The notes beneath the pieces were generated by a model. That model was not told the DNA's origin. It saw nothing but the letters and a program-made list of their open reading frames with translations, and searched no databases. Shown in pieces: positions 1 to 50,316 of a DNA stretch of 64,000 bases. How positions within the stretch are numbered: the stretch's first letter is position 1; each line of letters begins with the position of its first letter. This DNA comes from Crossaster papposus. Taxonomy: Eukaryota > Echinodermata > Asteroidea > Velatida > Solasteridae. Both the position numbers and the translations under genes were made by a program. The stretch lies in assembly GCA_037893245.1 (NCBI GenBank), contig JBAIAA010000413.1:186001-250000 (forward strand), written 5' to 3'.

Positions 1-481
1 GTCTCACTCATCCTGCTCAGAAGGAACAGCAGAGGTAGAAGACAGAGATATAGTATATCCACGTGTCTCACTCAGCCTGCTCAGAAGGAACAGCAAAGGT
101 AGAAGACAGAGATATAGTATATCCACGTGTCTCACGCAGCCTGCTCAGAAGGAACAGCATAGGTAGAAGACAGAGATATAGTATATCCACGTGTCTCACT
201 CAGCCTGCTCAGAAGGAACAGCAGAGGTAGAAGACAGAGATAGAGTATATCCACGTGTCTGATCTACACCTCACTCAGCCTGCTCAGAAGGAACACCAGA
301 GGTAGAAGACAGATATAGAGTATATCCACGTGTCTGATCTACACCTCACCCAGCCTGCTCAGAAGGAACAGCAGAGGTATAAGACAGAGATAGAGTATAT
401 CCACGTGTCTGATCTACACCTCACTCAGCCTGCTCAGAAGGAACAGCAGAGGTAGAAGACAGAGATAGAGTATATCCACGT

Positions 482-609
482 GTCTCACTCAACCTGCTCA
501 GAAATAACAGCAGAGGTAGAAGACAGAGACAGAGTATATCCACGTGTCTCACTCAGCTTGCTCAGTAGGAACACCAGAGGTAGAAGACAGAGATAGAGTA
601 TATCCACGT
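482..609 (+). repeat. Obligate dimer: gacagag S followed by cttgctcagtagg S
   Basis: Units with gaaataacag or gaaagaacaacag and the gacagagacagag ending are almost always followed by an S with cagcttgctcagtagg. The pair recurs dozens of times across all domains except the interior of D. Rare breaks (43,818; 45,230; the chimera near 42,219) stand out as rearrangement points. Confidence 0.85.
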
Positions 610-1346
610 GTCTGATCTACACCTCACTCAGCCTGCTCAGAAGAAACAGCAGAGGTAGAAGACAGATATATAGTATATCCACGTGTCTCACTCAGCCTGC
701 TCAGAAGGAACACCAGAGGTAGAAGACAGAGATAGAGTATATCCACGTGTCTCACTCAGCCTGCTCAGAAAGAACAACAGAGGTAGAAGACAGAGATAGA
801 GTATATCCACGTGTCTCACTCAGCCTGCTCAGAAGGAACAGCAGAGGTAGAAGACAGAGATAAAGTATATCCACGTGTCTGATCTACACCTCACTCAGCC
901 TGCTCAGAAGGAACACCAGAGGTAGAAGACAGAGATAGAGTATATCCACGTGTCTCACTCAGCCTGCTCAGTAGGAACAGCAGAGGTAGAAGACAGAGAT
1001 ATAGTATATCCACGTGTCTCACTCAGCCTGCTCAGAAGGAACAGCAGAGGTAGAAGACAGAGATAAAGTATATCCACGTGTCTCACTCAGCCTGCTCAGA
1101 AGGAACAGCAGAGGTAGAAGACAGATATAGAGTATATCCACGTGTCTCACTCAGCCTGCTCAGAAGGAACACCAGAGGTAGAAGACAGAGATATAGTATA
1201 TCCACGTGTCTGATCTACACCTCACTCAGCCTGCTCAGGAGGAACAGCAGAGGTAGAAGACAGATATATAGTATATCCACGTGTCTCACTCAGCCTGCTC
1301 AGAAGGAACACCAGAGGTAGAAGACAGAGATATAGTATATCCACGT

Positions 1347-1410
1347 GTCTCACTCAGCCTGCTCAGAAGGAACAGCAGAGGTAGAAGACAGAGATAGAGT
1401 ATATCCACGT
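1347..1410 (+). repeat. Reference short monomer (S, 64 bp)
   Basis: A clean example of the commonest unit. It starts gtctcactcagcc, contains ctgctcagaaggaacagcag, then aggtagaagacagagatag, and ends agtatatccacgt. About 31 of 64 bases are G or C. Variants differ at a few recurrent sites: cag/cat before cctgc, gaagg/gaaag/gaaat, cagcag/caccag/caacag, gaggtag/gcggtag/gtataag/gtacaag, and gatagag/gatatag/gatatagag-type/gataaag/gacagag. These sites serve as the unit-type signature. Confidence 0.97.
1359..1378. other. Short inverted repeat inside monomer (representative)
   Basis: CTGCT at 1359-1363 is the reverse complement of AGCAG at 1374-1378, with a 10-base loop (cagaaggaac). This could form a 5-bp stem in single-stranded DNA or RNA. 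It recurs in every unit with the cagcag signature. It is weakened by one mismatch in the caccag and caacag variants. The stem is short and may have no function. Confidence 0.4.
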
Positions 1411-1411
1411 G
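1406..1411. promoter_or_regulatory. CACGTG palindrome at unit junction (representative)
   Basis: CACGTG spans the junction of two consecutive units and recurs at nearly every junction in the window, spaced 64 or 75 bp apart. CACGTG is the canonical E-box bound by basic helix-loop-helix leucine-zipper proteins (Myc/Max, USF, MITF/TFE, Cbf1 types). The motif is directly visible; any binding is inference. Deviations exist: CCAAGTG (about 24,411, 24,871, 26,838, 27,295, 30,459), CACATG (many sites in domains C and D) and TACGTG (before most caact-type L units after 31 kb). Confidence 0.6.
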
Positions 1412-1485
1412 TCTGATCTACACCTCACTCAGCCTGCTCAGAAGGAACAGCAGAGGTAGAAGACAGAGATAGAGTATATCCACGT
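1411..1485 (+). repeat. Reference long monomer (L, 75 bp)
   Basis: Identical in plan to the 64-bp unit but with gatctacacct inserted between gtct and cactcagcc, which adds exactly 11 bp. L units make up about one third of all units (10 of 31 in the first HOR copy). They occur singly or in runs of two to four. Because 75 is a multiple of 3 and 64 is not, L units keep the reading frame and S units shift it; this fully explains the pattern of accidental open frames. Confidence 0.97.
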
Positions 1486-1624
1486 GTCTGATCTACACCT
1501 CACTCAGCCTGCTCAGAAGGAACAGCAGAGGTAGAAGACAGAGATAGAGTATATCCACGTGTCTCACTCAGCCTGCTCAGAAAGAACAGCAGAGGTAGAA
1601 GACAGAGACAGAGTATATCCACGT

Positions 1625-1687
1625 GTCTCACTCAGCTTGCTCAGTAGGAACAGCAGAGGTAGAGACAGAGATAGAGTATATCCACGT
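1625..1687 (+). repeat. 63-bp variant monomer (1-bp deletion)
   Basis: A cttgctcagtagg unit with gtagagacag instead of gtagaagacag, which is one base shorter. It recurs at the same HOR position in copies 3, 5, 6 and 7 (5812, 9081, 11238, 13331) and in domain B at 19836; a different 1-bp deletion (gtagaaacag) occurs at 19025. It is absent from copies 2 and 4 and from domains C-E. It is a good lineage marker, and being a multiple of 3 it creates the minus-strand open frames here. Confidence 0.9.
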
Positions 1688-1890
1688 GTCTCACTCAGCC
1701 TGCTCAGAAGGAACAGCAGAGGTAGAAGACAGATATAGAGTATATCCACGTGTCTCACTCAGCCTGCTCAGAAGGAACACCAGAGGTAGAAGACAGAGAT
1801 AGAGTATATCCACGTGTCTGATCTACACCTCACTCAGCCTGCTCAGAAGGAACAGCAGAGGTAGAAGACAGAGATAGAGTATATCCACGT

Positions 1891-1965
1891 GTGTGATCTA
1901 CAACTCACTCAGCCTGCTCAGAAGGAACAGCAGCGGTAGAAGACAGAGATAGAGTATATCCACGT
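1891..1965 (+). repeat. caactc/cagcgg L subtype (representative)
   Basis: An L unit with gtgtgatctacaactc in place of gtctgatctacacctc, and gcggtag in place of gaggtag. The linked changes recur together in domains A-C (for example 3985, 6078, 7649, 9347, 11504, 13458 and near 17,101, 20,571, 28,317, 37,300, 41,510, 51,490, 54,246). After 31 kb it is nearly always preceded by tatctacgt, which converts CACGTG to TACGTG. It is absent from domain D. Confidence 0.88.
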
Positions 1966-2093
1966 GTCTCACTCAGCCTGCTCAGAAGGAACAGCAGAGG
2001 TAGAAGACAGAGATATAGTATATCCACGTGTCTCACTCAGCCTGCTCAGAAGGAACAGCAGAGGTAGAAGACAGATATATAGTATATCCACGT

Positions 2094-4187
2094 GTCTCAC
2101 TCATCCTGCTCAGAAGGAACAGCAGAGGTAGAAGACAGAGATATAGTATATCCACGTGTCTCACTCAGCCTGCTCAGAAGGAACAGCAAAGGTAGAAGAC
2201 AGAGATATAGTATATCCACGTGTCTCACGCAGCCTGCTCAGAAGGAACAGCATAGGTAGAAGACAGAGATATAGTATATCCACGTGTCTCACTCAGCCTG
2301 CTCAGAAGGAACAGCAGAGGTAGAAGACAGAGATAGAGTATATCCACGTGTCTGATCTACACCTCACTCAGCCTGCTCAGAAGGAACACCAGAGGTAGAA
2401 GACACATATAGAGTATATCCACGTGTCTGATCTACACCTCACCCAGCCTGCTCAGAAGGAACAGCAGAGGTATAAGACAGAGATAGAGTATATCCACGTG
2501 TCTGATCTACACCTCACTCAGCCTGCTCAGAAGGAACAGCAGAGGTAGAAGACAGAGATAGAGTATATCCACGTGTCTCACTCAACCTGCTCAGAAATAA
2601 CAGCAGAGGTAGAAGACAGAGACAGAGTATATCCACGTGTCTCACTCAGCTTGCTCAGTAGGAACACCAGAGGTAGAAGACAGAGATAGAGTATATCCAC
2701 GTGTCTGATCTACACCTCACTCAGCCTGCTCAGAAGGAACAGCAGAGGTAGAAGACAGATATATAGTATATCCACGTGTCTCACTCAGCCTGCTCAGAAG
2801 GAACACCAGAGGTAGAAGACAGAGATAGAGTATATCCACGTGTCTCACTCAGCCTGCTCAGAAAGAACAACAGAGGTAGAAGACAGAGATAGAGTATATC
2901 CACGTGTCTCACTCAGCCTGCTCAGAAGGAACAGCAGAGGTAGAAGACAGAGATAAAGTATATCCACGTGTCTCACTCAGCCTGCTCAGAAAGAACAACA
3001 GAGGTAGAAGACAGAGACAGAGTATATCCACGTGTCTCACTCAGCTTGCTCAGTAGGAACAGCAGAGGTAGAAGACAGAGATAGAGTATATCCACGTGTC
3101 TCACTCAGCCTGCTCAGAAGGAACAGCAGAGGTAGAAGACAGAGATAAAGTATATCCACGTGTCTCACTCAGCCTGCTCAGAAGGAACATCAGAGGTAGA
3201 AGACAGATATAGAGTATATCCACGTGTCTCACTCAGCCTGCTCAGAAGGAACACCAGAGGTAGAAGACAGAGATAGAGTATATCCACGTGTCTGATCTAC
3301 ACTTCACTCAGCCTGCTCAGAAGGAACAGCAGAGGTAGAAGACAGATATATAGTATATCCACGTGTCTCACTCAGCCTGCTCAGAAGGAACACCAGAGGT
3401 AGAAGACAGAGATATAGTATATCCACGTGTCTCACTCAGCCTGCTCAGAAGGAACAGCAGAGGTAGAAGACAGAGATAGAGTATATCCACGTGTCTGATC
3501 TACACCTCACTCAGCCTGCTCAGAAGGAACAGCAGAGGTAGAAGACAGAGATATAGTATATCCACGTGTCTCACTCAGCCTGCTCAGAAGGAACAGCAGA
3601 GGTAGAAGACAGAGATAGAGTATATCCACGTGTCTCACGCAGCCTGCTCAGAAGGAACAGCATAGGTAGAAGACAGAGATATAGTATATCCACGTGTCTC
3701 ACTCAGCCTGCTCAGAAGGAACAGCAGAGGTAGAAGACAGAGATAGAGTATATCCACGTGTCTGATCTACACCTCACTCAGCCTGCTCAGAAGGAACACC
3801 AGAGGTAGAAGACAGAGATAGAGTATATCCACGTGTCTGATCTACACCTCACTCAGCCTGCTCAGAAGGAACAGCAGAGGTAGAAGACAGAGATAGAGTA
3901 TATCCACGTGTCTGATCTACACCTCACTCAGCCTGCTCAGAAGGAACAGCAGAGGTAGAAGACAGAGATAGAGTATATCCACGTGTGTAATCTACAACTC
4001 ACTCAGCCTGCTCAGAAGGAACAGCAGCGGTAGAAGACAGAGATAGAGTATATCCACGTGTCTCACTCAGCCTGCTCAGAAGGAACAGCAGAGGTAGAAG
4101 ACAGAGATATAGTATATCCACGTGTCTCACTCAGCCTGCTCAGACGGAACAGCAGAGGTAGAAGACAGATATAGAGTATATCCACGT
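2094..4187 (+). repeat. Domain A HOR copy 2, 2,094 bp, second half rearranged
   Basis: Units 1-13 match copy 1 in order and variant signature. From 2970 the order differs: an aacaacag/gacagag S and a cttgc S (3034) replace the L of copy 1. A second cacgcagcc/cataggt unit appears at 3632, and four L units run from 3760 to 4059. Total composition is still 21 S + 10 L. The fourth L (3985) carries gtgtaatct instead of gtgtgatct. The changed half resembles the unit order at 13.6-14.2 kb, suggesting exchange with a domain-B-like array. Confidence 0.88.
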
Positions 4188-6344
4188 GTCTCACTCATCC
4201 TGCTCAGAAGGAACAGCAGAGGTAGAAGACAGAGATATAGTATATCCACGTGTCTCACTCAGCCTGCTCAGAAGGAACAGCAAATGTAGAAGACAGAGAT
4301 ATAGTATATCCACGTGTCTCACGCAGCCTGCTCAGAAGGAACAGCATAGGTAGAAGACAGAGATATAGTATATCCACGTGTCTCACTCAGCCTGCTCAGA
4401 AGGAACAGCAGAGGTAGAAGACAGAGATAGAGTATATCCACGTGTCTGATCTACACCTCACTCAGCCTGCTCAGAAGGAACACCAGAGGTAGAAGACAGA
4501 TATAGAGTATATCCACGTGTCTGATCTACACCTCACCCAGCCTGCTCAGAAGGAACAGCAGAGGTATAAGACAGAGATAGAGTATATCCACGTGTCTGAT
4601 CTACACCTCACTCAGCCTGCTCAGAAGGAACAGCAGAGGTAGAAGACAGAGATAGAGTATATCCACGTGTCTCACTCAACCTGCTCAGAAATAACAGCAG
4701 AGGTAGAAGACAGAGACAGAGTATATCCACGTGTCTCACTCAGCTTGCTCAGTAGGAACACCAGAGGTAGAAGACAGAGATAGAGTTTATCCACGTGTCT
4801 GATCTACACCTCACTCAGCCTGCTCAGAAGGAACAGCAGAGGTAGAAGACAGATATATAGTATATCCACGTGTCTCACTCAGCCTGCTCAGAAGGAACAC
4901 CAGAGGTAGAAGACAGAGATAGAGTATATCCACGTGTCTCACTCAGCCTGCTCAGAAAGAACAACAGAGGTAGAAGACAGAGATAGAGTATATCCACGTG
5001 TCTCACTCAGCCTGCTCAGAAGGAACAGCAGAGGTAGAAGACAGAGATAAAGTATATCCACGTGTCTGATCTACACCTCACTCAGCCTGCTCAGAAGGAA
5101 CACCAGAGGTAGAAGACAGAGATAGAGTATATCCACGTGTCTCACTCAGCCTGCTCAGTAGGAACAGCAGAGGTAGAAGACAGAGATAGAGTATATCCAC
5201 GTGTCTCACTCAGCCTGCTCAGAAGGAACAGCAGAGGTAGAAGACAGAGATAAAGTATATCCACGTGTCTCACTCAGCCTGCTCAGAAGGAACAGCAGAG
5301 GTAGAAGACAGATATAGAGTATATCCACGTGTCTCACTCAGCCTGCTCAGAAGGAACACCAGAGGTAGAAGACAGAGATAGAGTATATCCACGTGTCTGA
5401 TCTACACCTCACTCAGCCTGCTCAGAAGGAACAGCAGAGGTAGAAGACAGATATATAGTATACCCACGTGTCTCACTCAGCCTGCTCAGAAGGAACACCA
5501 GAGGTAGAAGACAGAGATATAGTATATCCACGTGTCTCACTCAGCCTGCTCAGAAGGAACAGCAGAGGTAGAAGACAGAGATAGAGTATATCCACGTGTC
5601 TGATCTACACCTCACTCAGCCTGCTCAGAAGGAACAGCAGAGGTAGAAGACAGAGATAGAGTATATCCACGTGTCTGATCTACACCTCACTCAGCCTGCT
5701 CAGAAGGAACAGCAGAGGTAGAAGACAGAGATAGAGTATATCCACGTGTCTCACTCAGCCTGCTCAGAAAGAACAGCAGAGGTAGAAGACAGAGACAGAG
5801 TATATCCACGTGTCTCACTCAGCTTGCTCAGTAGGAACAGCAGAGGTAGAGACAGAGATAGAGTATATCCACGTGTCTCACTCAGCCTGCTCAGAAGGAA
5901 CAGCAGAGGTAGAAGACAGATATAGAGTATATCCACGTGTCTCACTCAGCCTGCTCAAAAGGAACACCAGAGGTAGAAGACAGAGATAGAGTATATCCAC
6001 GTGTCTGATCTACACCTCACTCAGCCTGCTCAGAAGGAACAGCAGAGGTAGAAGACAGAGATAGAGTATATCCACGTGTGTGATCTACAACTCACTCAGC
6101 CTGCTCAGAAGGAACAGCAGCGGTAGAAGACAGAGATATAGTATATCCACGTGTCTCACTCAGCCTGCTCAGAAGGAACAGCAGAGGTAGAAGACAGATA
6201 TAGAGTATATCCACGTGTCTCACTCATCCTGCTCAGAAGGAACAGCAGAGGTAGAAGACAGAGATATAGTATATCCACGTGTCTCACTCAGCCTGCTCAG
6301 AAGGAACAGCAGAGGTAGAAGACAGATATAGAGTATATCCACGT
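4188..6344 (+). repeat. Domain A HOR copy 3, 2,157 bp
   Basis: Same order as copy 1 with a net gain of one S unit. After the caactc L at 6078, a pair of S units (tcatcc at 6217, gatatagag-type at 6281) is added while one S is lost. Private substitutions include cagcaaatg near 4,273 and gagtttatcc near 4,786. It carries the tataccca variant near 5,461, which is shared with copies 4 and 5. Confidence 0.88.
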
Positions 6345-7915
6345 GTCTCACTCATCCTGCTCAGAAGGAACAGCAGAGGTAGAAGACAGAGATATAGTAT
6401 ATCCACGTGTCTCACTCAGCCTGCTCAGAAGGAACAGCAAAGGTAGAAGACAGAGATATAGTATATCCACGTGTCTCACGCAGCCTGCTCAGAAGGAACA
6501 GCATAGGTAGAAGACAGAGATATAGTATATCCACGTGTCTCACTCAGCCTGCTCAGAAGGAACAGCAGAGGTAGAAGACAGAGATAGAGTATATCCACGT
6601 GTCTGATCTACACCTCACTCAGCCTGCTCAGAAGGAACACCAGAGGTAGAAGACAGATATAGAGTATATCCACGTGTCTGATCTACACCTCACCCAGCCT
6701 GCTCAGAAGGAACAGCAGAGGTATAAGACAGAAATAGAGTATATCCACGTGTCTGATCTACACCTCACTCAGCCTGCTCAGAAGGAACAGCAGAGGTAGA
6801 AGACAGAGATAGAGTATATCCACGTGTCTCACTCAACCTGCTCAGAAATAACAGCAGAGGTAGAAGACAGAGACAGAGTATATCCACGTGTCTCACTCAG
6901 CTTGCTCAGTAGGAACACCAGAGGTAGAAGACAGAGATAGAGTATATCCACGTGTCTGATCTACACCTCACTCAGCCTGCTCAGAAGGAACAGCAGAGGT
7001 AGAAGACAGATATATAGTATATCCACGTGTCTCACTCAGCCTGCTCAGAAGGAACACCAGAGGTAGAAGACAGAGATAGAGTATATCCACGTGTCTGATC
7101 TACACCTCACTCAGCCTGCTCAGAAGGAACAGCAGAGGTAGAAGACAGATATATAGTATACCCACGTGTCTCACTCAGCCTGCTCAGAAGGAACACCAGA
7201 GGTAGAAGACAGAGATATAGTATATCCACGTGTCTCACTCAGCCTGCTCAGAAGGAACAGCAGAGGTAGAAGACAGAGATAGAGTATATCCACGTGTCTG
7301 ATCTACACCTCACTCAGCCTGCTCAGAAGGAACAGCAGAGGTAGAAGACAGAGATAGAGTATATCCACGTGTCTGATCTACACCTCACTCAGCCTGCTCA
7401 GAAGGAACAGCAGAGGTAGAAGACAGAGATAGAGTATATCCACGTGTCTCACTCAGCCTGCTCAGAAGGAACAGCAGAGGTAGAAGACAGATATAGAGTA
7501 TATCCACGTGTCTCACTCAGCCTGCTCAAAAGGAACACCAGAGGTAGAAGACAGAGATAGAGTATATCCACGTGTCTGATCTACACCTCACTCAGCCTGC
7601 TCAGAAGGAACAGCAGAGGTAGAAGACAGAGATAGAGTATATCCACGTGTGTGATCTACAACTCACTCAGCCTGCTCAGAAGGAACAGCAGCGGTAGAAG
7701 ACAGAGATATAGTATATCCACGTGTCTCACTCAGCCTGCTCAGAAGGAACAGCAGAGGTAGAAGACAGATATAGAGTATATCCACGTGTCTCACTCATCC
7801 TGCTCAGAAGGAACAGCAGAGGTAGAAGACAGAGATATAGTATATCCACGTGTCTCACTCAGCCTGCTCAGAAGGAACAGCAGAGGTAGAAGACAGATAT
7901 AGAGTATATCCACGT
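6345..7915 (+). repeat. Domain A HOR copy 4, 1,571 bp (two internal deletions)
   Basis: Relative to copy 3 it lacks units 12-18 (6 S + 1 L, 459 bp; junction at 7093) and units 24-25 (127 bp, including the 63-bp unit; junction at 7446). 2,157 - 459 - 127 = 1,571, matching the measured length exactly. Both deletions remove whole units and preserve register. The extra tcatcc/gatatagag pair is present at 7788-7915. Confidence 0.88.
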
Positions 7916-9613
7916 GTCTCACTCATCCTGCTCAGAAGGAACAGCAGAGGTAGAAGACAGAGATATAGTATATCCACGTGTCTCACTCAGCCTGCTCAGA
8001 AGGAACAGCAAAGGTAGAAGACAGAGATATAGTATATCCACGTGTCTCACGCAGCCTGCTCAGAAGGAACAGCATAGGTAGAAGACAGAGATATAGTATA
8101 TCCACGTGTCTCACTCAGCCTGCTCAGAAGGAACAGCAGAGGTAGAAGACAGAGATAGAGTATATCCACGTGTCTGATCTACACCTCACTCAGCCTGCTC
8201 AGAAGGAACACCAGAGGTAGAAGACAGATATAGAGTATATCCACGTGTCTGATCTACACCTTACCCAGCCTGCTCAGAAGGAACAGCAGAGGTATAAGAC
8301 AGAAATAGAGTATATCCACGTGTCTGATCTACACCTCACTCAGCCTGCTCAGAAGGAACAGCAGAGGTAGAAGACAGAGATAGAGTATATCCACGTGTCT
8401 CACTCAACCTGCTCAGAAATAACAGCAGAGGTAGAAGACAGAGACAGAGTATATCCACGTGTCTCACTCAGCTTGCTCAGTAGGAACACCAGAGGTAGAA
8501 GACAGAGATAGAGTATATCCACGTGTCTGATCTACACCTCACTCAGCCTGCTCAGAAGGAACAGCAGAGGTAGAAGACAGATATATAGTATATCCACGTG
8601 TCTCACTCAGCCTGCTCAGAAGGAACACCAGAGGTAGAAGACAGAGATAGAGTATATCCACGTGTCTGATCTACACCTCACTCAGCCTGCTCAGAAGGAA
8701 CAGCAGAGGTAGAAGACAGATATATAGTATACCCACGTGTCTCACTCAGCCTGCTCAGAAGGAACACCACAGGTAGAAGACAGAGATATAGTATATCCAC
8801 GTGTCTCACTCAGCCTGCTCAGAAGGAACAGCAGAGGTAGAAGACAGAGATAGAGTATATCCACGTGTCTGATCTACACCTCACTCAGCCTGCTCAGAAG
8901 GAACAGCAGAGGTAGAAGACAGAGATAGAGTATATCCACGTGTCTGATCTACACCTCACTCAGCCTGCTCAGAAGGAACAGCAGAGGTAGAAGACAGAGA
9001 TAGAGTATATCCACGTGTCTCACTCAGCCTGCTCAGAAAGAACAGCAGAGGTAGAAGACAGAGACAGAGTATATCCACGTGTCTCACTCAGCTTGCTCAG
9101 TAGGAACAGCAGAGGTAGAGACAGAGATAGAGTATATCCACGTGTCTCACTCAGCCTGCTCAGAAGGAACAGCAGAGGTAGAAGACAGATATAGAGTATA
9201 TCCACGTGTCTCACTCAGCCTGCTCAAAAGGAACACCAGAGGTAGAAGACAGAGATAGAGTATATCCACGTGTCTGATCTACACCTCACTCAGCCTGCTC
9301 AGAAGGAACAGCAGAGGTAGAAGACAGAGATAGAGTATATCCACGTGTGTGATCTACAACTCACTCAGCCTGCTCAGAAGGAACAGCAGCGGTAGAAGAC
9401 AGAGATATAGTATATCCACGTGTCTCACTCAGCCTGCTCAGAAGGAACATCAGAGGTAGAAGACAGATATAGAGTATATCCACGTGTCTCACTCATCCTG
9501 CTCAGAAGGAACAGCAGAGGTAGAAGACAGAGATATAGTATATCCACGTGTCTCACTCAGCCTGCTCAGAAGGAACAGCAGAGGTAGAAGACAGATATAG
9601 AGTATATCCACGT
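7916..9613 (+). repeat. Domain A HOR copy 5, 1,698 bp (one internal deletion)
   Basis: It shares the 12-18 unit deletion with copy 4 (junction at 8664) but retains units 24-25 (9017 and 9081). 1,571 + 127 = 1,698, as measured. Shared deletion, shared tataccca variant and shared terminal unit pair show copies 4 and 5 descend from one deleted ancestor. Private changes include acctta in the L near 8,260 and accacagg near 8,766. Confidence 0.88.
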
Positions 9614-11706
9614 GTCTCACTCATCCTGCTCAGAAGGAACAGCAGAGGTAGAAGACAGAGATATAGTATATCCACGTGTCTCACTCAGCCTGCTCAGAAG
9701 GAACAGCAAAGGTAGAAGACAGAGATATAGTATATCCACGTGTCTCACGCAGCCTGCTCAGAAGGAACAGCATAGGTAGAAGACAGAGATATAGTATATC
9801 CACGTGTCTCACTCAGCCTGCTCAGAAGGAACAGCAGAGGTAGAAGACAGAGATAGAGTATATCCACGTGTCTGATCTACACCTCACTCAGCCTGCTCAG
9901 AAGGAACACCAGAGGTAGAAGACAGATATAGAGTATATCCACGTGTCTGATCTACACCTCACCCAGCCTGCTCAGAAGGAACAGCAGAGGTATAAGACAG
10001 AAATAGAGTATATCCACGTGTCTGATCTACACCTCACTCAGCCTGCTCAGAAGGAACAGCAGAGGTAGAAGACAGAGATAGAGTATATCCACGTGTCTCA
10101 CTCAACCTGCTCAGAAATAACAGCAGAGGTAGAAGACAGAGACAGAGTATATCCACGTGTCTCACTCAGCTTGCTCAGTAGGAACACCAGAGGTAGAAGA
10201 CAGAGATAGAGTATATCCACGTGTCTGATCTACACCTCACTCAGCCTGCTCAGAAGGAACAGCAGAGGTAGAAGACAGATATATAGTATATCCACGTGTC
10301 TCACTCAGCCTGCTCAGAAGGAACACCAGAGGTAGAAGACAGAGATAGAGTATATCCACGTGTCTCACTCAGCCTGCTCAGAAAGAACAACAGAGGTAGA
10401 AGACAGAGATAGAGTATATCCACGTGTCTCACTCAGCCTGCTCAGAAGGAACAGCAGAGGTAGAAGACAGAGATAAAGTATATCCACGTGTCTGATCTAC
10501 ACCTCACTCAGCCTGCTCAGAAGGAACACCAGAGGTAGAAGACAGAGATAGAGTATATCCACGTGTCTCACTCAGCCTGCTCAGTAGGAACAGCAGAGGT
10601 AGAAGACAGAGATAGAGTATATCCACGTGTCTCACTCAGCCTGCTCAGAAGGAACAGCAGAGGTAGAAGACAGAAATAAAGTATATCCACGTGTCTCACT
10701 CAGCCTGCTCAGAAGGAACAGCAGAGGTAGAAGACAGATATAGAGTATATCCACGTGTCTCACTCAGCCTGCTCAGAAGGAACACCAGAGGTAGAAGACA
10801 GAGATAGAGTATATCCACGTGTCTGATCTACACCTCACTCAGCCTGCTCAGAAGGAACAGCAGAGGTAGAAGACAGATATATAGTATATCCACGTGTCTC
10901 ACTCAGCCTGCTCAGAAGGAACACCAGAGGTAGAAGACAGAGATATAGTATATCCACGTGTCTCACTCAGCCTGCTCAGAAGGAACAGCAGAGGTAGAAG
11001 ACAGAGATAGAGTATATCCACGTGTCTGATCTACACCTCACTCAGCCTGCTCAGAAGGAACAGCAGAGGTAGAAGACAGAGATAGAGTATATCCACGTGT
11101 CTGATCTACACCTCACTCAGCCTGCTCAGAAGGAACAGCAGAGGTAGAAGACAGAGATAGAGTATATCCACGTGTCTCACTCAGCCTGCTCAGAAAGAAC
11201 AGCAGAGGTAGAAGACAGAGACAGAGTATATCCACGTGTCTCACTCAGCTTGCTCAGTAGGAACAGCAGAGGTAGAGACAGAGATAGAGTATATCCACGT
11301 GTCTCACTCAGCCTGCTCAGAAGGAACAGCAGAGGTAGAAGACAGATATAGAGTATATCCACGTGTCTCACTCAGCCTGCTCAGAAGGAACACCAGAGGT
11401 AGAAGACAGAGATAGAGTATATCCACGTGTCTGATCTACACCTCACTCAGCCTGCTCAGAAGGAACAGCAGAGGTAGAAGACAGAGATAGAGTATATCCA
11501 CGTGTGTGATCTACAACTCACTCAGCCTGCTCAGAAGGAACAGCAGCGGTAGAAGACAGAGATAGAGTATATCCACGTGTCTCACTCAGCCTGCTCAGAA
11601 GGAACAGCAGAGGTAGAAGACAGAGATATAGTATATCCACGTGTCTCACTCAGCCTGCTCAGAAGGAACAGCAGAGGTAGAAGACAGATATAGAGTATAT
11701 CCACGT
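9614..11706 (+). repeat. Domain A HOR copy 6, full 31 units, 2,093 bp
   Basis: Full-length copy with the same length as copy 1 and the same unit order, including the 63-bp unit at 11238. Only scattered substitutions separate them (for example gaaataaag near 10,672 and gaaatagag near 10,001, the latter also in copies 4, 5 and 7). Full-length copies flanking the deleted copies 4 and 5 argue for unequal exchange inside the array. Confidence 0.9.
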
Positions 11707-13532
11707 GTCTCACTCATCCTGCTCAGAAGGAACAGCAGAGGTAGAAGACAGAGATATAGTATATCCACGTGTCTCACTCAGCCTGCTCAGAAGGAACAGC
11801 AAAGGTAGAAGACAGAGATATAGTATATCCACGTGTCTCACGCAGCCTGCTCAGAAGGAACAGCATAGGTAGAAGACAGAGATATAGTATATCCACGTGT
11901 CTCACTCAGCCTGCTCAGAAGGAACAGCAGAGGTAGAAGACAGAGATAGAGTATATCCACGTGTCTGATCTACACCTCACTCAGCCTGCTCAGAAGGAAC
12001 ACCAGAGGTAGAAGACAGATATAGAGTATATCCACGTGTCTGATCTACACCTCACCCAGCCTGCTCAGAAGGAACAGCAGAGGTATAAGACAGAAATAGA
12101 GTATATCCACGTGTCTGATCTACACCTCACTCAGCCTGCTCAGAAGGAACAGCAGAGGTAGAAGACAGAGATAGAGTATATCCACGTGTCTCACTCAACC
12201 TGCTCAGAAATAACAGCAGAGGTAGAAGACAGAGACAGAGTATATCCACGTGTCTCACTCAGCTTGCTCAGTAGGAACACCAGAGGTAGAAGACAGAGAT
12301 AGAGTATATCCACGTGTCTGATCTACACCTCACTCAGCCTGCTCAGAAGGAACAGCAGAGGTAGAAGACAGATATATAGTATATCCACGTGTCTCACTCA
12401 GCCTGCTCAGAAGGAACACCAGAGGTAGAAGACAGAGATAGAGTATATCCACGTGTCTCACTCAGCCTGCTCAGAAAGAACAACAGAGGTAGAAGACAGA
12501 GATAGAGTATATCCACGTGTCTCACTCAGCCTGCTCAGAAGGAACAGCAGAGGTAGAAGACAGAGATAAAGTATATCCACGTGTCTGATCTACACCTCAC
12601 TCAGCCTGCTCAGAAGGAACACCAGAGGTAGAAGACAGAGATAGAGTATATCCACGTGTCTCACTCAGCCTGCTCAGTAGGAACAGCAGAGGTAGAAGAC
12701 AGAGATAGAGTATATCCACGTGTCTCACTCAGCCTGCTCAGAAGGAACAGCAGAGGTAGAAGACAGAAATAAAGTATATCCACGTGTCTCACTCAGCCTG
12801 CTCAGAAGGAACAGCAGAGGTAGAAGACAGATATAGAGTATATCCACGTGTCTCACTCAGCCTGCTCAGAAGGAACACCAGAGGTAGAAGACAGAGATAG
12901 AGTATATCCACGTGTCTGATCTACACCTCACTCAGCCTGCTCAGAAGGAACAGCAGAGGTAGAAGACAGATATATAGTATATCCACGTGTCTCACTCAGC
13001 CTGCTCAGAAGGAACACCAGAGGTAGAAGACAGAGATATAGTATATCCACGTGTCTCACTCAGCCTGCTCAGAAGGAACAGCAGAGGTAGAAGACAGAGA
13101 TAGAGTATATCCACGTGTCTGATCTACACCTCACTCAGCCTGCTCAGAAGGAACAGCAGAGGTAGAAGACAGAGATAGAGTATATCCACGTGTCTGATCT
13201 ACACCTCACTCAGCCTGCTCAGAAGGAACAGCAGAGGTAGAAGACAGAGATAGAGTATATCCACGTGTCTCACTCAGCCTGCTCAGAAAGAACAGCAGAG
13301 GTAGAAGACAGAGACAGAGTATATCCACGTGTCTCACTCAGCTTGCTCAGTAGGAACAGCAGAGGTAGAGACAGAGATAGAGTATATCCACGTGTCTCAC
13401 TCAGCCTGCTCAGAAGGAACAGCAGAGGTAGAAGACAGAGATAGAGTATATCCACGTGTGTGATCTACAACTCACTCAGCCTGCTCAGAAGGAACAGCAG
13501 CGGTAGAAGACAGAGATAGAGTATATCCACGT
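11707..13532 (+). repeat. Domain A HOR copy 7, partial, 1,826 bp
   Basis: Units 1-26 follow the copy 1 order (1,751 bp), then the caactc/cagcgg L (13458) follows directly. The caccag S and the L that should precede it are missing. After 13,532 the unit order no longer follows the 31-unit pattern (for example the private caggctgctcagaaggg unit at 13533), so I place the end of domain A here. Confidence 0.8.
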
Positions 13533-16500
13533 GTCTCACTCAGGCTGCTCAGAAGGGACAGCAGAGGTAGAAGACAGAGATATAGTATATCCACGTGTCT
13601 CACTCAGCCTGCTCAGAAGGAACAGCAGAGGTAGAAGACAGAGATAGAGTATATCCACGTGTCTCACGCAGCCTGCTCAGAAGGAACAGCATAGGTAAAA
13701 GACAGAGATATAGTATATCCACGTGTCTCACTCAGCCTGCTCAGAAGGAACAGCAGAGGTAGAAGACAGAGATAGAGTATATCCACGTGTCTGATCTACA
13801 CCTCACTCAGCCTGCTCAGAAGGAACACCAGAGGTAGAAGACAGAGATAGAGTATATCCACGTGTCTGATCTACACCTCACTCAGCCTGCTCAGAAGGAA
13901 CAGCAGAGGTAGAAGACAGAGATAGAGTATATCCACGTGTCTGATCTACACCTCACTCAGCCTGCTCAGAAGGAACAGCAGAGGTAGAAGACAGAGATAG
14001 AGTATATCCACGTGTGTGATCTACAACTCACTCAGCCTGCTCAGAAGGAACAGCAGCGGTAGAAGACAGAGATAGAGTATATCCACGTGTCTCACTCAGC
14101 CTGCTCAGAAGGAACAGCAGAGGTAGAAGACAGAGATATAGTATATCCACGTGTCTCACTCAGCCTGCTCAGAAGGAACAGCAGAGGTAGGAGACAGATA
14201 TAGAGTATATCCACGTGTCTCACTCATCCTGCTCAGAAGGAACAGCAGAGGTAGAAGACAGAGATATAGTATATCCACGTGTCTCACTCAGCCTGCTCAG
14301 AAGGAACAGCAGAGGTAGAAGACAGAGATAGAGTATATCCACGTGTCTCACTCAGCCTGCTCAGAAATAATAGCAGAGGTAGAAGACAGAGACAGAGTAT
14401 ATCCACGTGTCTCACTCAGCTTGCTCAGTAGGAACAGCAGAGGTAGAAGACAGAGATAGAGTATATCCACGTGTCTCACTCAGCCTGCTCAGAAGGAACA
14501 GCAGAGGTAGAAGACAGAGATAGAGTATATCCACGTCTGTGATCTACAACTCACTCAGCCTGCTCAGAAGGAACAGCAGCGGTAGAAGACAGAGATAGAG
14601 TATATCCACGTGTCTCACTCAGCCTGCTCAGAAGGAACAGCAGAGGTAGAAGACAGATATAGAGTATATCCACGTGTCTCACTCAGCCTGCTCAGAAGGA
14701 ACACCAGAGGTAGAAGACAGAGATAGAGTATATCCACGTGTCTGATCTACACCTCACTCAGCCTGCTCAGAAGGAACAGCAGAGGTAGAAGACAGATATA
14801 TAGTATATCCACGTGTCTCACTCAGCCTGCTCAGAAGGAACACCAGAGGTAGAATACAGAGATAGAGTATATCCACGTGTCTCACTCAGCCTGCTCAGAA
14901 AGAACAACAGAGGTAGAAGACAGAGACAGAGTATATCCACGTGTCTCACTCAGCTTGCTCAGTAGGAACAGCAGAGGTAGAAGACAGATATAAAGTATAT
15001 CCACGTGTCTCACTCAGCCTGCTCAGAAGGAACAGCAGAGGTAGAAGACAGATATAGAGTATATCCACGTGTCTCACTCAGCCTGCTCAGAAGGAACACC
15101 AGAGGTAGAAGACAGAGATAGAGTATATCCACGTGTCTGATCTACACCTCACTCAGCCTGCTCAGAAGGAACAGCAGAGGTAGAAGACAAATATATAGTA
15201 TATCCACGTGTCTCACTCAGCCTGCTCAGAAGGAACACCAGAGGTAGAAGACAGAGATATAGTATATCCACGTGTCTCACTCAGCCTGCTCAGAAGGAAC
15301 AGCAGAGGTAGAAGACAGAGATAGAGTATATCCACGTGTCTGATCTACACCTCACTCAGCCTGCTCAGAAGGAACAGCAGAGGTAGAAGACAGAGATAGA
15401 GTATATCCACGTGTCTGATCTACACCTCACTCAGCCTGCTCAGAAGGAACAGCAGCGGTAGAAGACAGAGATAGAGTATATCCACGTGTCTCACTCAGCC
15501 TGCTCAGAAGGAACACCAGAGGTACAAGACAGAGATAGAGTATATCCACGTGTCTGATCTACACCTCACTCAGCCTGCTCAGAAGGAACAGCAGAGGTAG
15601 AAGACAGATATATAGTATATCCACGTGTCTCACTCAGCCTGCTCAGAAGGAACACCAGAGGTAGAAGACAGAGATAGAGTATATCCACGTGTCTCACTCA
15701 GCCTGCTCAGAAAGAACAACAGAGGTAGAAGACAGAGACAGAGTATATCCACGTGTCTCACTCAGCTTGCTCAGTAGGAACAGCAGAGGTAGAAGACAGA
15801 GATAGAGTATATCCACGTGTCTCACTCAGCCTGCTCAGAAGGAACAGCAGAGGTAGAAGACAAAGATAGAGTATATCCACGGGTGTGATCTACAACTCAC
15901 TCAGCCTGCTCAGAAGGAACAGCAGCGGTAGAAGACAGAGATAGAGTATATCCACGTGTCTCACTCAGCCTGCTCAGAAGGAACAGCAGAGGTAGAAGAC
16001 AGATATAGAGTATATCCACGTGTCTCACTCAGCCTGCTCAGAAGGAACACCAGAGGTAGAAGACAGAGATAGAGTATATCCACGTGTCTGATCTACACCT
16101 CACTCAGCCTGCTCAGAAGGAACAGCAGAGGTAGAAGACAGATATATAGTATATCCACGTGTCTCACTCAGCCTGCTCAGAAGGAACACCAGAGGTAGAA
16201 GACAGAGATAGAGTATATCCACGTGTCTCACTCAGCCTGCTCAGAAAGAACAACAGAGGTAGAAGACAGAGACAGAGTATATCCACGTGTCTCACTCAGC
16301 TTGCTCAGTAGGAACAGCAGAGGTAGAAGACAGATATAAAGTATATCCACGTGTCTCACTCAGCCTGCTCAGAAGGAACAGCAGAGGTAGAAGACAGATA
16401 AAGAGTATATCCACGTGTCTCACTCAGCCTGCTCAGAAGGAACACCAGAGGTAGAAGACAGAGATAGAGTATATCCACGTGTCTAATCTACACCTCACTC

Positions 16501-33744: not shown

Positions 33745-36700
33745 GTCTCACTAAGCCTGCTCAGAAGGAACAGCAGAGGTAGAAGACAGATATAGAGTAT
33801 ATCCACGTGTCTCACTCAGCCTGCTCAGAAGGAACACCAGAGGTAGAAGACAGAGATAGAGTATATCCACGTGTCTGATCTACACCTCACTCAGCCTGCT
33901 CAGAAGGAACAGCAGAGGTAGAAGACAGATATATAGTATATCCACATGTCTCACTCAGCCTGCTCAGAAGGAACACCAGAGGTAGAAGACAGAGATATAG
34001 TATATCCACGTGTCTCACTCAGCCTGCTCAGAAGGAACAGCAGAGGTAGAAGACAGAGATAGAGTATATCCACGTGTCTCACTCAGCCTGCTCAGAAAGA
34101 ACAACAGAGGTAGAAGACAGAGACAGAGTATATCCACGTGTCTCACTCAGCTTGCTCAGTAGGAACAGCAGAGGTAGAAGACAGAGATAGAGTATATCCA
34201 CGTGTCTCACTCAGCCTGCTCAGAAGGAACAGCAGAGGTAGAAGACAGAGATAGAGTATATCCACGTGCCTCACTCAACCTGCTCAGAAGGAACAGCAGA
34301 GGTAGAAGACAGATATATAGTATATCCACGTGTCTCACTCAGCCTGCTCAGAAGGAACACCAGAGGTAGAAGACAGAGATAGAGTATATCCACGTGTCTG
34401 ATCTACACCTCACTCAGCCTGTTCAGAAGGAACAGCAGAGGTAGAAGACACATATATAGTATATCCACGTGTCTCACTCAGCCTGCTCAGAAGGAACACC
34501 AGAGGTAGAAGACAGAGATATAGTATATCCACGTGTCTCACTCAGCCTGCTCAGAAGGAACAGCAGAGGTAGAAGACAGAGATAGAGTATATCCACGTGT
34601 CTGATCTACACCTCACTCAGCCTGCTCAGAAGGAACAGCAGAGGTAGAAGACAGAGATAGAGTATATCCACGTCTCTCACACAGCCTGCTCAGAAGAAAC
34701 ACCAGAGGTAGAAGACAGAGATAGAGTATATCCACGTGTCTGATCTACACCTCACTCAGCCTGCTCAGAAGGAACAGCAGAGGTAGAAGACAGAGATATA
34801 GTATATCCACGTGTCTCACTCATCCTGCTCAGAAGGAACAGCAGAGGTAGAAGACAGAGATATAGTATATACACGTGTCTCACTCAGCCTGCTCAGAAGG
34901 AACAGCAGAGGTAGAAGACAGATATAGAGTATATCCACGTGTCTCACTCAGCCTGCTCAGAAGGAACACCAGAGGTAGAAGACAGAGATAGAGTATATCC
35001 ACGTGTCTGATCTACACCTCACTCAGCCTGCTCAGAAGGAACAGCAGAGGTAGAAGACAGATATATAGTATATCCACGTGTCTCACTCAGCCTGCTCAGA
35101 AGGAACACCAGAGGTAGAAGACAGAGATATAGTATATCCACGTGTCTCACTCAGCCTGCTCAGAAGGAACAGCAGAGGTAGAAGACAGAGATAGAGTATA
35201 TCCACGTGTCTGATCTACACCTCACTCAGCCTGCTCAGAAGGAACAGCAGAGGTAGAAGACAGAGATAGAGTATATCCACGTGTCTCACTCAGCCTGCTC
35301 AGAAGGAACACCAGAGGTAGAAGACAGAGATAGAGTATATCCACGTGTCTGATCTACACCTCACTCAGCCTGCTCAGAAGGAACAGCAGAGGTAGAAGAC
35401 AGATATATAGTATATCCACATGTCTCACTCAGCCTGCTCAGAAGGAACACCAGAGGTAGAAGACAGAGATATAGTATATCCACGTGTCTCACTCAGCCTG
35501 CTCAGAAGGAACAGCAGAGGTAGAAGACAGAGATAGAGTATATCCACGTGTCTCACTCAGCCTGCTCCGAAAGAACAACAGAGGTAGAAGACAGAGACAG
35601 AGTATATCCACGTGTCTCACTCAGCTTGCTCAGTAGGAACAGCAGAGGTAGAAGACAGAGATAGAGTATATCCACGTGTCTCACTCAGCCTGCTCAGAAG
35701 GAACAGCAGAGGTAGAAGACAGAGATAGAGTATATCCACGTGCCTCACTCAACCTGCTCAGAAGGAACAGCAGAGGTAGAAGACAGATATATAGTATATC
35801 CACGTGTCTCACTCAGCCTGCTCAGAAGGAACACCAGAGGTAGAAGACAGAGATAGAGTATATCCACGTGTCTGATCTACACATCACTCAGCCTGCTCAG
35901 AAGGAACAGCAGAGGTAGAAGACACATATATAGTATATCCACGTGTCTCACTCAGCCTGCTCAGAAGGAACACCAGAGGTAGAAGACAGAGATATAGTAT
36001 ATCCACGTGTCTCACTCAGCCTGCTCAGAAGGAACAGCAGAGGTAGAAGACAGAGATAGAGTATATCCACGTGTCTGATCTACACCTCACTCAGCCTGCT
36101 CAGAAGGAACAGCAGAGGTAGAAGACAGAGATAGAGTATATCCACGTGTCTCACTCAGCCTGCTCAGAAGGAACACCAGAGGTAGAAGACAGAGATAGAG
36201 TATATCCACGTGTCTGATCTACACCTCACTCAGCCTGCTCAGAAGGAACAGCAGAGGTAGAAGACAGAGATATAGTATATCCACGTGTCTCACTCATCCT
36301 GCTCAGAAGGAACAGCAGAGGTAAAAGACAGAAATATAGTATATACACGTGTCTCACTCAGCCTGCTAAGAAGGAACAGCAGAGGTAGAAGACAGAGATA
36401 GAGTATATCCACGTGTCTCACTCAGCCTGCTCAGAAGGAACAGCAGAGGTAGAAGACAGATATAGAGTATATCCACGTGTCTCACTCAGCCTGCTCAGAA
36501 GGAACACCAGAGGTAGAAGACAGAGATAGAGTATATCCACGTGTCTGATCTACACCTCACTCAGCCTGCTCAGAAGGAACAGCAGAGGTAGAAGACAGAT
36601 ATATAGTATATCCACGTGTCTCACTCAGCCTGCTCAGAAGGAACACCAGAGGTAGAAGACAGAGATATAGTATATCCACGTGTCTCACTCAGCCTGCTCA

Positions 36701-36940
36701 GAAGGAACAGCAGAGGTAGAAGACAGAGATATAGTATATCCACGTGTCTGATCTACACCTCACTCAGCCTGCTCAGAAGGAACAGCAGAGGTAGAAGACA
36801 GAGATAGAGTATATCCACGTGTCTCACTCAGCCTGCTCAGAAGGAACACCAGAGGTAGAAAACAGAGATAGAGTATATCCACGTGTCTGATCTACACCTC
36901 ACTCAGCCTGCTCAGAAGGAACAGCAGAGGTAGAAGACAG
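33745..36940 (+). repeat. 3.2-kb block, copy 1 of a 13,376-bp-offset duplication
   Basis: Recurs at 47,121-50,316 with a constant offset of 13,376 bp (equal to 134 S + 64 L). Anchors at the same offset include gtgcctcactcaacc (34,267/47,643), the unique cgtctctcacacagcc unit (34,671/48,047), gctccgaaag (35,564/48,940) and gtagaaaacag (36,855/50,231). Differences are sparse. The block contains about two turns of a 1,474-bp HOR (16 S + 6 L), seen as gtgcct units at 34,267 and 35,741. Confidence 0.88.
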
Positions 36941-37685
36941 AGATAGAGTATATCCACGTGTCTGATCTACACCTCACTCAGCCTGCTCAGAAGGAACAGC
37001 AGAGGTAGAAGACAGAGATAGAGTATATCCACGTGTCTGATCTACACCTCACTCAGCCTGCTCAGAAGGAACAGCAGAGGTAGAAGACAGATATAGAGTA
37101 TATCCACGTGTCTCACTCAGCCTGCTCAGAAATAACAGCAGAGGTAGAAGACAGAGACAGAGTATATCCACGTGTCTCACTCAGCTTGCTCAGTAGGAAC
37201 AGCAGAGGTAGAAGACAGAGATAGAGTATATCCACGTGTCTCACTCAGCCTGCTCAGAAGGAACAGCAGAGGTAGAAGACAGAGATAGAGTATATCTACG
37301 TGTGTGATCTACAACTCACTCAGCCTGCTCAGAAGGAACAGCAGCGGTAGAAGACAGAGATAGAGTATATCCACTTGTCTCACTCAGCCTTCTCAGAAGG
37401 AACAGCAGAGGTAGAAGACAGATATAGAGTATATCCACGTGTCTCACTCAGCCTGCTCAAAAGAAACACCAGAGGTAGAAGACAGAGATAGAGTATATCC
37501 ACGTGTCTGATCTACATCTCACTCAGCCTGCTCAGAAGGAACAGCAGAGGTAGAAGACAGAGATATAGTATATCCACGTGTCTCACTCATCCTGCTCAGA
37601 AGGAACAGCAGAGGTAGAAGACAGAGATATAGTATATACACGTGTCTCACTCAGCCTGCTCAGAAGGAACAGCAGAGGTAGAAGA
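35945..37685 (+). repeat. 1.74-kb block, copy 1 of a 2,500-bp-offset duplication
   Basis: Matches 38,445-40,185 at exactly 2,500 bp offset (25 S + 12 L). Shared rare variants are gctaagaagg (36,361/38,861 region), gaaatatag with tatatacacg, and gtagaaaacag (36,855/39,355). This copy has private changes such as ccacttgtc and cttctcag near 37,375, and gctcaaaagaaacacc near 37,460. Confidence 0.87.
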
Positions 37686-38444: not shown

Positions 38445-40185
38445 GTCTCACTCAGCCTGCTCAGAAGGAACACCAGAGGTAGAAGACAGAGATATAGTAT
38501 ATCCACGTGTCTCACTCAGCCTGCTCAGAAGGAACAGCAGAGGTAGAAGACAGAGATAGAGTATATCCACGTGTCTGATCTACACCTCACTCAGCCTGCT
38601 CAGAAGGAACAGCAGAGGTAGAAGACAGAGATAGAGTATATCCACGTGTCTCACTCAGCCTGCTCAGAAGGAACACCAGAGGTAGAAGACAGAGATAGAG
38701 TATATCCACGTGTCTGATCTACACCTCACTCAGCCTGCTCAGAAAGAACAGCAGAGGTAGAAGACAGAGATATAGTATATCCACGTGTCTCACTCATCCT
38801 GCTCAGAAGGAACAGCAGAGGTAGAAGACAGAAATATAGTATATACACGTGTCTCACTCAGCCTGCTAAGAAGGAACAGCAGAGGTAGAAGACAGAGATA
38901 GAGTATATCCACGTGTCTCACTCAGCCTGCTCAGAAGGAACAGCAGAGGTAGAAGACAGATATAGAGTATATCCACGTGTCTCACTCAGCCTGCTCAGAA
39001 GGAACACCAGAGGTAGAAGACAGAGATAGAGTATATCCACGTGTCTGATCTACACCTCACTCAGCCTGCTCAGAAGGAACAGCAGAGGTAGAAGACAGAT
39101 ATATAGTATATCCACGTGTCTCACTCAGCCTGCTCAGAAGGAACACCAGAGGTAGAAGACAGAGATATAGTATATCCACGTGTCTCACTCAGCCTGCTCA
39201 GAAGGAACAGCAGAGGTAGAAGACAGAGATATAGTATATCCACGTGTCTGATCTACACCTCACTCAGCCTGCTCAGAAGGAACAGCAGAGGTAGAAGACA
39301 GAGATAGAGTATATCCACGTGTCTCACTCAGCCTGCTCAGAAGGAACACCAGAGGTAGAAAACAGAGATAGAGTATATCCACGTGTCTGATCTACACCTC
39401 ACTCAGCCTGCTCAGAAGGAACAGCAGAGGTAGAAGACAGAGATAGAGTATATCCACGTGTCTGATCTACACCTCACTCAGCCTGCTCAGAAGGAACAGC
39501 AGAGGTAGAAGACAGAGATAGAGTATATCCACGTGTCTGATCTACACCTCACTCAGCCTGCTCAGAAGGAACAGCAGAGGTAGAAGACAGATATAGAGTA
39601 TATCCACGTGTCTCACTCAGCCTGCTCAGAAATAACAGCAGAGGTAGAAGACAGAGACAGAGTATATCCACGTGTCTCACTCAGCTTGCTCAGTAGGAAC
39701 AGCAGAGGTAGAAGACAGAGATAGAGTATATCCACGTGTCTCACTCAGCCTGCTCAGAAGGAACAGCAGAGGTAGAAGACAGAGATAGAGTATATCTACG
39801 TGTGTGATCTACAACTCACTAAGCCTGCTCAGAAGGAACAGCAGCGGTAGAAGACAGAGATAGAGTATATCCACGTGTCTCACTCAGCCTGCTCAGAAGG
39901 AACAGCAGAGGTAGAAGACAGATATAGAGTATATCCACGTGTCTCACTCAGCCTGCTCAGAAGGAACACCAGAGGTAGAAGACAGAGATAGAGTATATCC
40001 ACGTGTCTGATCTACACCTCACTCAGCCTGCTCAGAAGGAACAGCAGAGGTAGAAGACAGAGATATAGTATATCCACGTGTCTCACTCATCCTGCTCAGA
40101 AGGAACAGCAGAGGTAGAAGACAGAGATATAGTATATCCACGTGTCTCACTCAGCCTGCTCAGAAGGAACAGCAGAGGTAGAAGA
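38445..40185 (+). repeat. 1.74-kb block, copy 2 of a 2,500-bp-offset duplication
   Basis: Partner of 35,945-37,685. The left boundary lies at a unit junction after a cttgctcagtagg unit, whereas the first copy is preceded by a cacatatatag L. The right boundary lies in the unit at 40,144, where gatagag replaces gatatagag-type. Private change: cactaagcc in the caactc L near 39,820. Confidence 0.87.
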
Positions 40186-50100: not shown

Positions 50101-50316
50101 AGAGATATAGTATTTCCACGTGTCTGATCTACACCTCACTCAGCCTGCTCAGAAGGAACAGCAGAGGTAGAAGACAGAGATAGAGTATATCCACGTGTCT
50201 CACTCAGCCTGCTCAGAAGGAACACCAGAGGTAGAAAACAGAGATAGAGTATATCCACGTGTCTGATCTACACCTCACTCAGCCTGCTCAGAAGGAACAG
50301 CAGAGGTAGAAGACAG
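47121..50316 (+). repeat. 3.2-kb block, copy 2 of a 13,376-bp-offset duplication
   Basis: Partner of 33,745-36,940. Contains two turns of the 1,474-bp HOR (gtgcct units at 47,643 and 49,117; tcatcc units at 48,189 and 49,663). Private differences include gaggtggaag near 47,487, ccaggtgtc at about 47,704, cagcaaagg near 47,939 and tatctccacg near 48,851. Upstream of 47,121 the caactc L seen before the first copy is missing, so the left edge is a deletion or exchange junction. Confidence 0.87.

Follow-up and report, generated by a model that had tools for sequence, protein, structure and literature searches.

Does the short-unit satellite at this Crossaster papposus locus carry a strict higher-order repeat (HOR), as the original prediction proposed for positions 1 to 13532, or is the 31-unit pattern seen there a local feature of a larger array? 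Decomposition into units revealed that this satellite, here termed satA, fills the whole stretch of DNA that was analyzed (the window, 64,000 nucleotides of contig C413). It forms a single head-to-tail array on the forward strand (positions 1 to 64000), consisting of 947 units and a 43-base tail without interruption. Two unit types were distinguished, S of 64 bp and L of 75 bp, the latter corresponding to S plus 11 bp. Of these lengths there were 631 and 305 units, respectively, and the remaining units measured 63 bp (7 units), 65 bp (3 units) or 62 bp (1 unit). The array continues past the window on both sides, and 188,060 uninterrupted bases of C413 were resolved into 2,777 pieces. A coding repeat was rejected, since 64 cannot be divided by 3 and the window contains no open reading frame of at least 150 amino acids. 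A structured RNA or hairpin satellite was rejected as well, as positions 1 to 6000, the part searched, gave no Rfam match at the gathering score and the S and L consensus sequences folded at shuffle level (z of −0.49 and −0.42). Phage, plasmid, IMG/VR and GTDB origins were dismissed because neither a 25-base pattern nor positions 1 to 2093 yielded a match. Being head-to-tail, abundant, noncoding and arranged in long arrays, the satA array is gene-free, noncoding satellite DNA, which is probably packaged as heterochromatin.

At the left end of the window, the arithmetic of the original prediction proved exact: copy 1 (positions 1 to 2093) comprises 31 S and L units, 20 × 64 + 63 + 10 × 75 = 2,093 bp, and the next copy begins at 2,094. 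Seven copies, all on the forward strand, could be delineated, with successive starts spaced by 2093, 2094, 2157, 1571, 1698 and 2093 bp. Copy 2 (2094 to 4187, 31 units) contains units 1 to 22, with S instead of L at unit 14, followed by a stretch of nine units most similar to units 2 to 6 and 28 to 31. Copy 3 (4188 to 6344, 32 units) retains units 1 to 31 with unit 30 duplicated. The same duplication occurs in copy 4 (6345 to 7915, 23 units), which lacks units 12 to 18 and 24 to 25, and in copy 5 (7916 to 9613, 25 units), which lacks units 12 to 18. Copy 6 (9614 to 11706) displays the exact order of units 1 to 31 and overlaps the longest exact duplicated run of the window. Finally, copy 7 (11707 to 13596, 28 units) carries units 1 to 26, 29 and 30 without 27, 28 and 31, and here the register ends. 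The exact order is thus found only in copies 1 and 6, that is, in one of the six copies other than the reference, and the swapped, duplicated or deleted units of the others do not allow the repeat to be called strict.

The order of units nevertheless recurs far beyond chance. Among units 1 to 200, exact unit identity at a lag of 31 units reached 0.36, compared with a shuffle maximum of 0.14 (lags 1 to 99, 200 order shuffles); lags of 142 (0.67) and 111 (0.44) units scored above it. Exact duplication in the window extends over at most 26 units, at lag 31 (starts at 9550 and 11643), while 30 shuffles produced maxima of 3 to 5 units. Tiling of units 32 to 199 with copy 1 had a cost of 111, whereas none of 50 shuffles cost less than 451, confirming that the S/L order is not random. 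The predicted recurrence of S/L order and variants in later copies held closely when whole-unit shifts were allowed: S/L type then agreed in 167 of these 168 units and 67.9% of the units were identical, whereas in a fixed register the agreement fell to 120/168 and the identity to 38/168. Cognate units were 99.4% identical to those of copy 1 (shifts allowed), compared with 95.8% among the units within copy 1 (minimum of 89.1%; 64 shared positions), so that similarity is greater between cognates than inside a copy, as in an HOR, though by a small gap. Regular tandem copies of the block throughout the array were not observed, as the seven copies, two of them in exact order, are confined to positions 1 to 13,596. 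The array therefore does have a higher-order arrangement, although one limited to a local patch whose copies are mostly edited, with other lags elsewhere. The predicted right boundary lies near the end of the 31-unit register (approximately 13,457 to 13,596), while the satellite itself fills the window and extends beyond it.

To the right of this zone the register is lost and other local repeats dominate. Exact identity at lag 31 was only 0.098 over the whole window, which led us to reject a window-wide 31-unit periodicity. Local repeat lengths elsewhere in the array include 19, 13, 37, 68, 44 and 217 units, and the lag changes along the array. On the forward strand, for instance, 46 units at 33809 to 36884 are matched at 47185 to 50260 (lag of 198 units), and 20 units at 35945 to 37301 are matched at 38445 to 39801 (lag of 37 units). 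The window contains 45 duplicated blocks scoring at least 8, against none in each of five shuffles, and when the 188-kb array was divided into 69 successive blocks of 40 units, 65 of them matched another part of it with a value higher than the best from one shuffled array. A repeat with a lag of 217 units (approximately 14.66 kb) in the same array is both larger and more exact than the 31-unit one. Collectively, these data revealed that the 31-unit pattern is a local, much-edited patch and not the organizing unit of the array.

The locus occurs a second time in the assembly. The satB|satA junction pattern had exactly two matches in the genome, on contigs C413 and C1008, and in one stretch compared across the junction 5,153 of 5,158 bases were identical without a gap; the comparison rests on 8,958 bases of C1008. 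The 63-bp unit, which is the 25th of copy 1 (positions 1625 to 1687, forward strand), recurs exactly in the window at 5812, 9081, 11238, 13331 and 19836, and its exact matches in the genome are limited to C413 (64) and C1008 (8). It cannot serve as a marker of the 31-unit block alone, given that only 5 of the 64 exact C413 matches lie inside the 31-unit zone; it marks the locus and its second copy. Spacings of 10383, 4187, 2157 and 2093 between these markers are common to both contigs. Within the 31-unit zone, one spacing differs, 3269 on C413 against 1206 + 1623 on C1008, and this difference consists of whole units: 53 units could be paired, 48 of them identical, which leaves 8 units of the window and 2 of C1008 without a partner and gives a net difference of 440 bp. 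Outside the zone, the distance from the junction to the first marker differs by 139, equal to 64 + 75, and one spacing measures 6505 on one contig and 6503 on the other, a 2-bp change that no whole unit accounts for. C1008 probably represents the other haplotype, although a segmental duplication of recent origin or an error of the assembly could also account for it.

We consider it likely that the array with its 31-unit patch arose in an ordinary way, by unequal exchange or by slippage that kept to the unit register. Because S and L units are approximately 96% alike, sister chromatids or homologues could align with an offset of whole units at almost any point. Blocks of units would then be duplicated and deleted by repeated rounds of unequal exchange (or of slippage or break-induced replication). 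In this way a 31-unit block may have been tandemly duplicated to seven copies within the first 13.6 kb and these copies altered afterwards as more whole units were lost or duplicated, while blocks of different lengths would have expanded elsewhere in the same array. The whole-unit edits in the seven copies and the whole-unit differences from C1008 count in favor of unequal exchange. Furthermore, in 14 of 171 pairs among 19 variant sites each of the four possible combinations was present in 8 or more units, as expected from exchange between units, although recurrent mutation can also yield them. The structure, the lags, the seven edited copies and the near-identical copy on C1008 are observed; the exchange itself is what we infer, and the present evidence fits exchange, slippage, gene conversion and rolling-circle reinsertion alike.

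A centromeric role, with the 31-unit zone as a young, homogenized, CENP-A-bearing core like that of human alpha satellite, appears unlikely. It would suit the abundance of satA, extrapolated to 19 to 30 Mb of the 1.02-Gb genome, its presence on 11 contigs (32,794 exact 59-mer matches in the genome), its 188 kb of uninterrupted array and its local HOR-like patches. However, the patch spans only about 13.6 kb and is surpassed by the lag-217 repeat of the same array. Since exact matches to unit 25 (the 63-bp unit) are confined to this locus and to C1008, a complete exact 31-unit block is absent elsewhere, and the best match to the 2,093-bp block on other contigs was 92% (21 of 3,141 candidates scored). 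Nor is satA the sole centromere candidate, because one of the two satellites flanking it on C413 (of 199 bp and approximately 486 bp), the adjoining 199-bp one, is of comparable abundance. Kinship of satA with satB or satC was rejected on raw local scores of 10 and 9. CENP-B boxes are present in some centromeric satellites but are not a requirement; a CENP-B-box pattern had no match in the window at 0 or 1 mismatch. At two mismatches there were 39 matches against a mean of 18.7 and a largest value of 31 in 100 shuffles, nearly all of them repeats of two unit variants that shuffling breaks up.

We regard as improbable that the S/L order was selected to phase nucleosomes, even though S-S-L amounts to 203 bp, near the nucleosome repeat, and the 11 bp by which L exceeds S approximate one helical turn. 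Against 500 shuffles of the window, SSL and LSS (178 each versus 140, standard deviation [SD] of 6) and SLS (160 versus 140, SD of 10) were overrepresented, and LSL (35 versus 67, SD of 7) and SSS (249 versus 294, SD of 11) were rarer. The autocorrelation of A+T dinucleotides was higher at 203 bp (0.39) than at 139 bp (0.33), but lower than at 64 bp (0.48). Local block duplication alone gives such triplet biases, however, and the shuffle control destroys block structure; 203 bp is also the commonest three-unit sum expected at these S/L proportions. Least probable of all is that the regularity arose by assembly from a collapsed or misjoined repeat: C413 and C1008 do differ within a very self-similar zone, but the four shared marker spacings are alike on two contigs and many small variants distinguish the copies. 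A combined scenario, in which satA is (peri)centromeric, its order weakly selected for approximately 203-bp phasing and the C413/C1008 pair an HOR turnover caught between haplotypes, strikes us as quite unlikely. If its haplotype reading were true, the block zone would already have been altered by whole units at base changes of approximately 0.1% in the compared stretch.

Compared with known systems, satA resembles alpha-satellite HORs in that a block of many units was amplified together and cognates are more alike than units within the block. Alpha-satellite units are described as 70 to 90% alike within a block and more than 95% between copies (PMC5615363). By that description, satA departs from them in its unit length (64/75 bp, not approximately 170 bp) and its within-block similarity (95.8%, not 70 to 90%), and thus falls outside the alpha-satellite type of HOR; it differs further in that its seven copies lie within 13.6 kb and are mostly edited, and in that its centromere link is putative. 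WaluSat, a human 64-bp Alu-associated satellite of chromosomes 14 and 22, shares the 64-bp unit and an expanded array (PMC9186530). Identity with it was rejected, as the local score against the published 64-nt probe (PMC12746033) was 10, compared with a mean of 9.9 for 300 shuffled probes. The 112-64 dimer arrays of mouse minor satellite, likened to HORs by their authors, are likewise built from two unit lengths; as described, they differ from satA in being dimers, and CENP-B boxes and CENP-A enrichment are reported for them (PMC10880262). Smith's unequal-crossover model, a process rather than a family, matches satA in its shifting local periods and whole-unit gains and losses, and against the model as described we noted no satA feature beyond what the process would give (PMC8122249). 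None of the literature matches listed describes satA, and six short monomer words had no literature match; going by those matches, satA is a new satellite formed by a process of a known kind. Its value is modest, as a well-resolved case of blocks of very similar short units arising and decaying, for which the near-identical second copy allows comparison. If satA were centromeric, it would also provide a handle on the centromere DNA of this species.

Cutting the window at a conserved word of its satellite (satA) yielded 947 units and a 43-base tail, and Tandem Repeats Finder reported a single array spanning positions 1 to 64000. The units were predominantly of two lengths, 64 bp (S; n = 631) and 75 bp (L; n = 305), the remainder measuring 63 (n = 7), 65 (n = 3) or 62 bp (n = 1); 11 extra bases following GTCT turn S into L. 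A total of 210 distinct units were found, with an average pairwise distance of 2.8 per 64 shared positions.

The unit decomposition bore out the original prediction that the first block at the window start comprises 31 units and 2,093 bp. Seven consecutive copies of this block begin at 1, 2094, 4188, 6345, 7916, 9614 and 11707, the last ending at 13,596. The order proved less strict than had been claimed: only copy 6 repeats the exact order of copy 1, the reference, and the other five are edited, with units swapped, unit 30 present twice, or units 12-18, 24-25, or 27, 28 and 31 missing. Compared with copy 1 in fixed register, units 32-199 agreed in S/L type at 120 of 168 positions and in the exact unit at 38 of 168. 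When shifts were allowed, agreement rose to 167 of 168 and 67.9%, respectively, values that are flattered because such a fit minimises differences. The fair control is therefore the cost of tiling these units with copy 1, which was 111, whereas none of 50 shuffles cost less than 451. Cognate units, again with shifts allowed, were 99.4% identical, compared with 95.8% among units within copy 1. The top lags in units 1-200 were 142 (0.67), 111 (0.44) and 31 (0.36); the first two equal the unit distances that separate copy 6 from copies 1 and 2, and thus arise from the same copy family.

To the right of 13.6 kb, lag 31 was lost and different lags took over. Across the window, 45 duplicated blocks scored at least 8, compared with 0 in each of five shuffles, and together covered 643 of the 947 units. 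Immediately left of copy 1 (C413:181-186 kb, on the contig carrying the window) lies a 19-unit repeat built from similar units. The part of the array that we read (C413:171,941-360,000; 2,777 pieces) consists of satA in one orientation without interruption, and 65 of its 69 successive 40-unit blocks had a match in the same array that exceeded the top value from a single shuffle (0.20). The most exact repeat lies at a lag of 217 units (~14.66 kb), where C413:303,409-319,244 and 318,070-333,896 share 81% exactly identical units. The 31-unit zone is therefore one patch of many and not the most exact. The lag-217 duplication (C413:303409-333896) is both larger and cleaner.

A near-identical copy of the locus was found on contig C1008. 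A pattern spanning the junction between satA and the neighbouring 199-bp satellite (satB) had two exact matches in the genome, at C413:171929 and C1008:35593 (reverse), and a C1008 stretch (L007) was identical to C413:170546-175704 at 5,153 of 5,158 bases, gap-free. The 63-bp unit, unit 25 of copy 1, had 72 exact genome matches, 64 on C413 and 8 on C1008; since only 5 of the 64 fall inside the 31-unit zone, it marks the locus rather than the block. Its successive spacings on C413/C1008 were 10383/10383, 4187/4187, 3269/1206+1623, 2157/2157, 2093/2093 and 6505/6503. From the junction to the first marker, the distances were 5329 and 5190 bp, a difference of 139 bp (64 + 75) located outside the 31-unit zone. 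C1008:12601-16400 contained 55 whole units, of which 53 paired with window units, 48 of them identically; eight window units and two C1008 units had no partner, all of them inside the 3269 interval and giving a net difference of 440 bp, gap placement in such a repeat alignment being ambiguous. C1008 is likeliest the other haplotype of the locus, a duplication or an assembly error being less likely readings. Cognate units of the block diverge by 0.6%, compared with 0.1% between the two contigs (in L007), so the block likely predates the split of the C413 and C1008 copies.

For the 31-unit zone, the most likely explanation involves recombination or replication and needs no assumed function. Near-identical short units could re-pair at whole-unit offsets, which would duplicate and delete blocks of units, and the zone would then represent a block expansion with erosion already under way. 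The higher-order repeat criteria applied here and the unequal-crossover models were taken from PMC5615363 and PMC8122249, respectively, and comparisons with WaluSat and the mouse dimer drew on PMC9186530 and PMC12746033 and on PMC10880262, respectively. As far as the literature searched shows, the satA sequence represents a new satellite family of an already known type. A centromeric or heterochromatic role may be supposed.

The window corresponds to C413:186001-250000 in a 1.02-Gb assembly of 1,841 contigs, in which a 59-base satA pattern had 32,794 exact matches. Extrapolation gave totals of 19.1 Mb by window density (110 matches in 64 kb), 23.4 Mb by density in the 188-kb array (264 matches) and ~30 Mb from the first 100 listed matches on C30 (91 kb). 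satA occurs on at least 11 contigs (C30, C49, C62, C124, C151, C171, C375, C413, C611, C820 and C1008), and on C62 and C124 it is present on both strands.

On C413, satB lies directly left of satA, with a sharp junction near 171,940. All ten stretches read between C413:1 and the junction (L009-L016, L029 and L030; 10,001-50,000 and 52,001-100,000 left out) have 82-100% of their 14-mers in common with L015, itself one of the ten (100% by construction), and satB copies match each other at 96-98% in Tandem Repeats Finder rows. A 39-base satB pattern had 79,608 exact matches genome-wide, giving a lower figure of ~15.8 Mb (79,608 × 199 bp). The right end of satA falls between 362.6 kb, the last marker, and 400 kb. 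Neither satA nor satB was present in any of 16 two-kb samples from C413 400 kb-1.35 Mb (L031-L046, 400001-1352000). Between 91 and 100% of the 14-mers in each of these samples recur in L036, a member of the set that consists of a 486-bp repeat (satC), so that satC apparently extends over nearly 1 Mb; the samples taken at 1.40 and 1.45 Mb do not reach this level of sharing. satC lies between satA and a gene for histone H2A, which is located close to the end of the contig, past the satellites (L048, C413:1448561-1458560, 8001-8567, minus strand). The stretch beginning at C413:1400001 carries a short repeat, GCCGCCATGCCCACC, at its start.

Echinoderms and flatworms use genetic code 9, and bindin is an echinoderm sperm protein. 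Contig C1841 (16,330 bases) carries COX1 with 13 in-frame TGA codons. Translated with code 9, this gene reached 839.5 bits with its top-scoring PDB chain, versus 808.3 with code 5, the two codes compared in PDB. Bindin (PF02084) matched at a single place, on C356 (E value of 9.5e-32), and had no match in 14 control genomes. The source animal is probably an echinoderm. COX1 matches without in-frame stops were found at C8:5208663-5210009 and C8:2872001-2873343; this contig of at least 5.2 Mb, whose COX1 is unlike the 13-TGA copy on the 16-kb contig, probably derives from a bacterial symbiont or contaminant.
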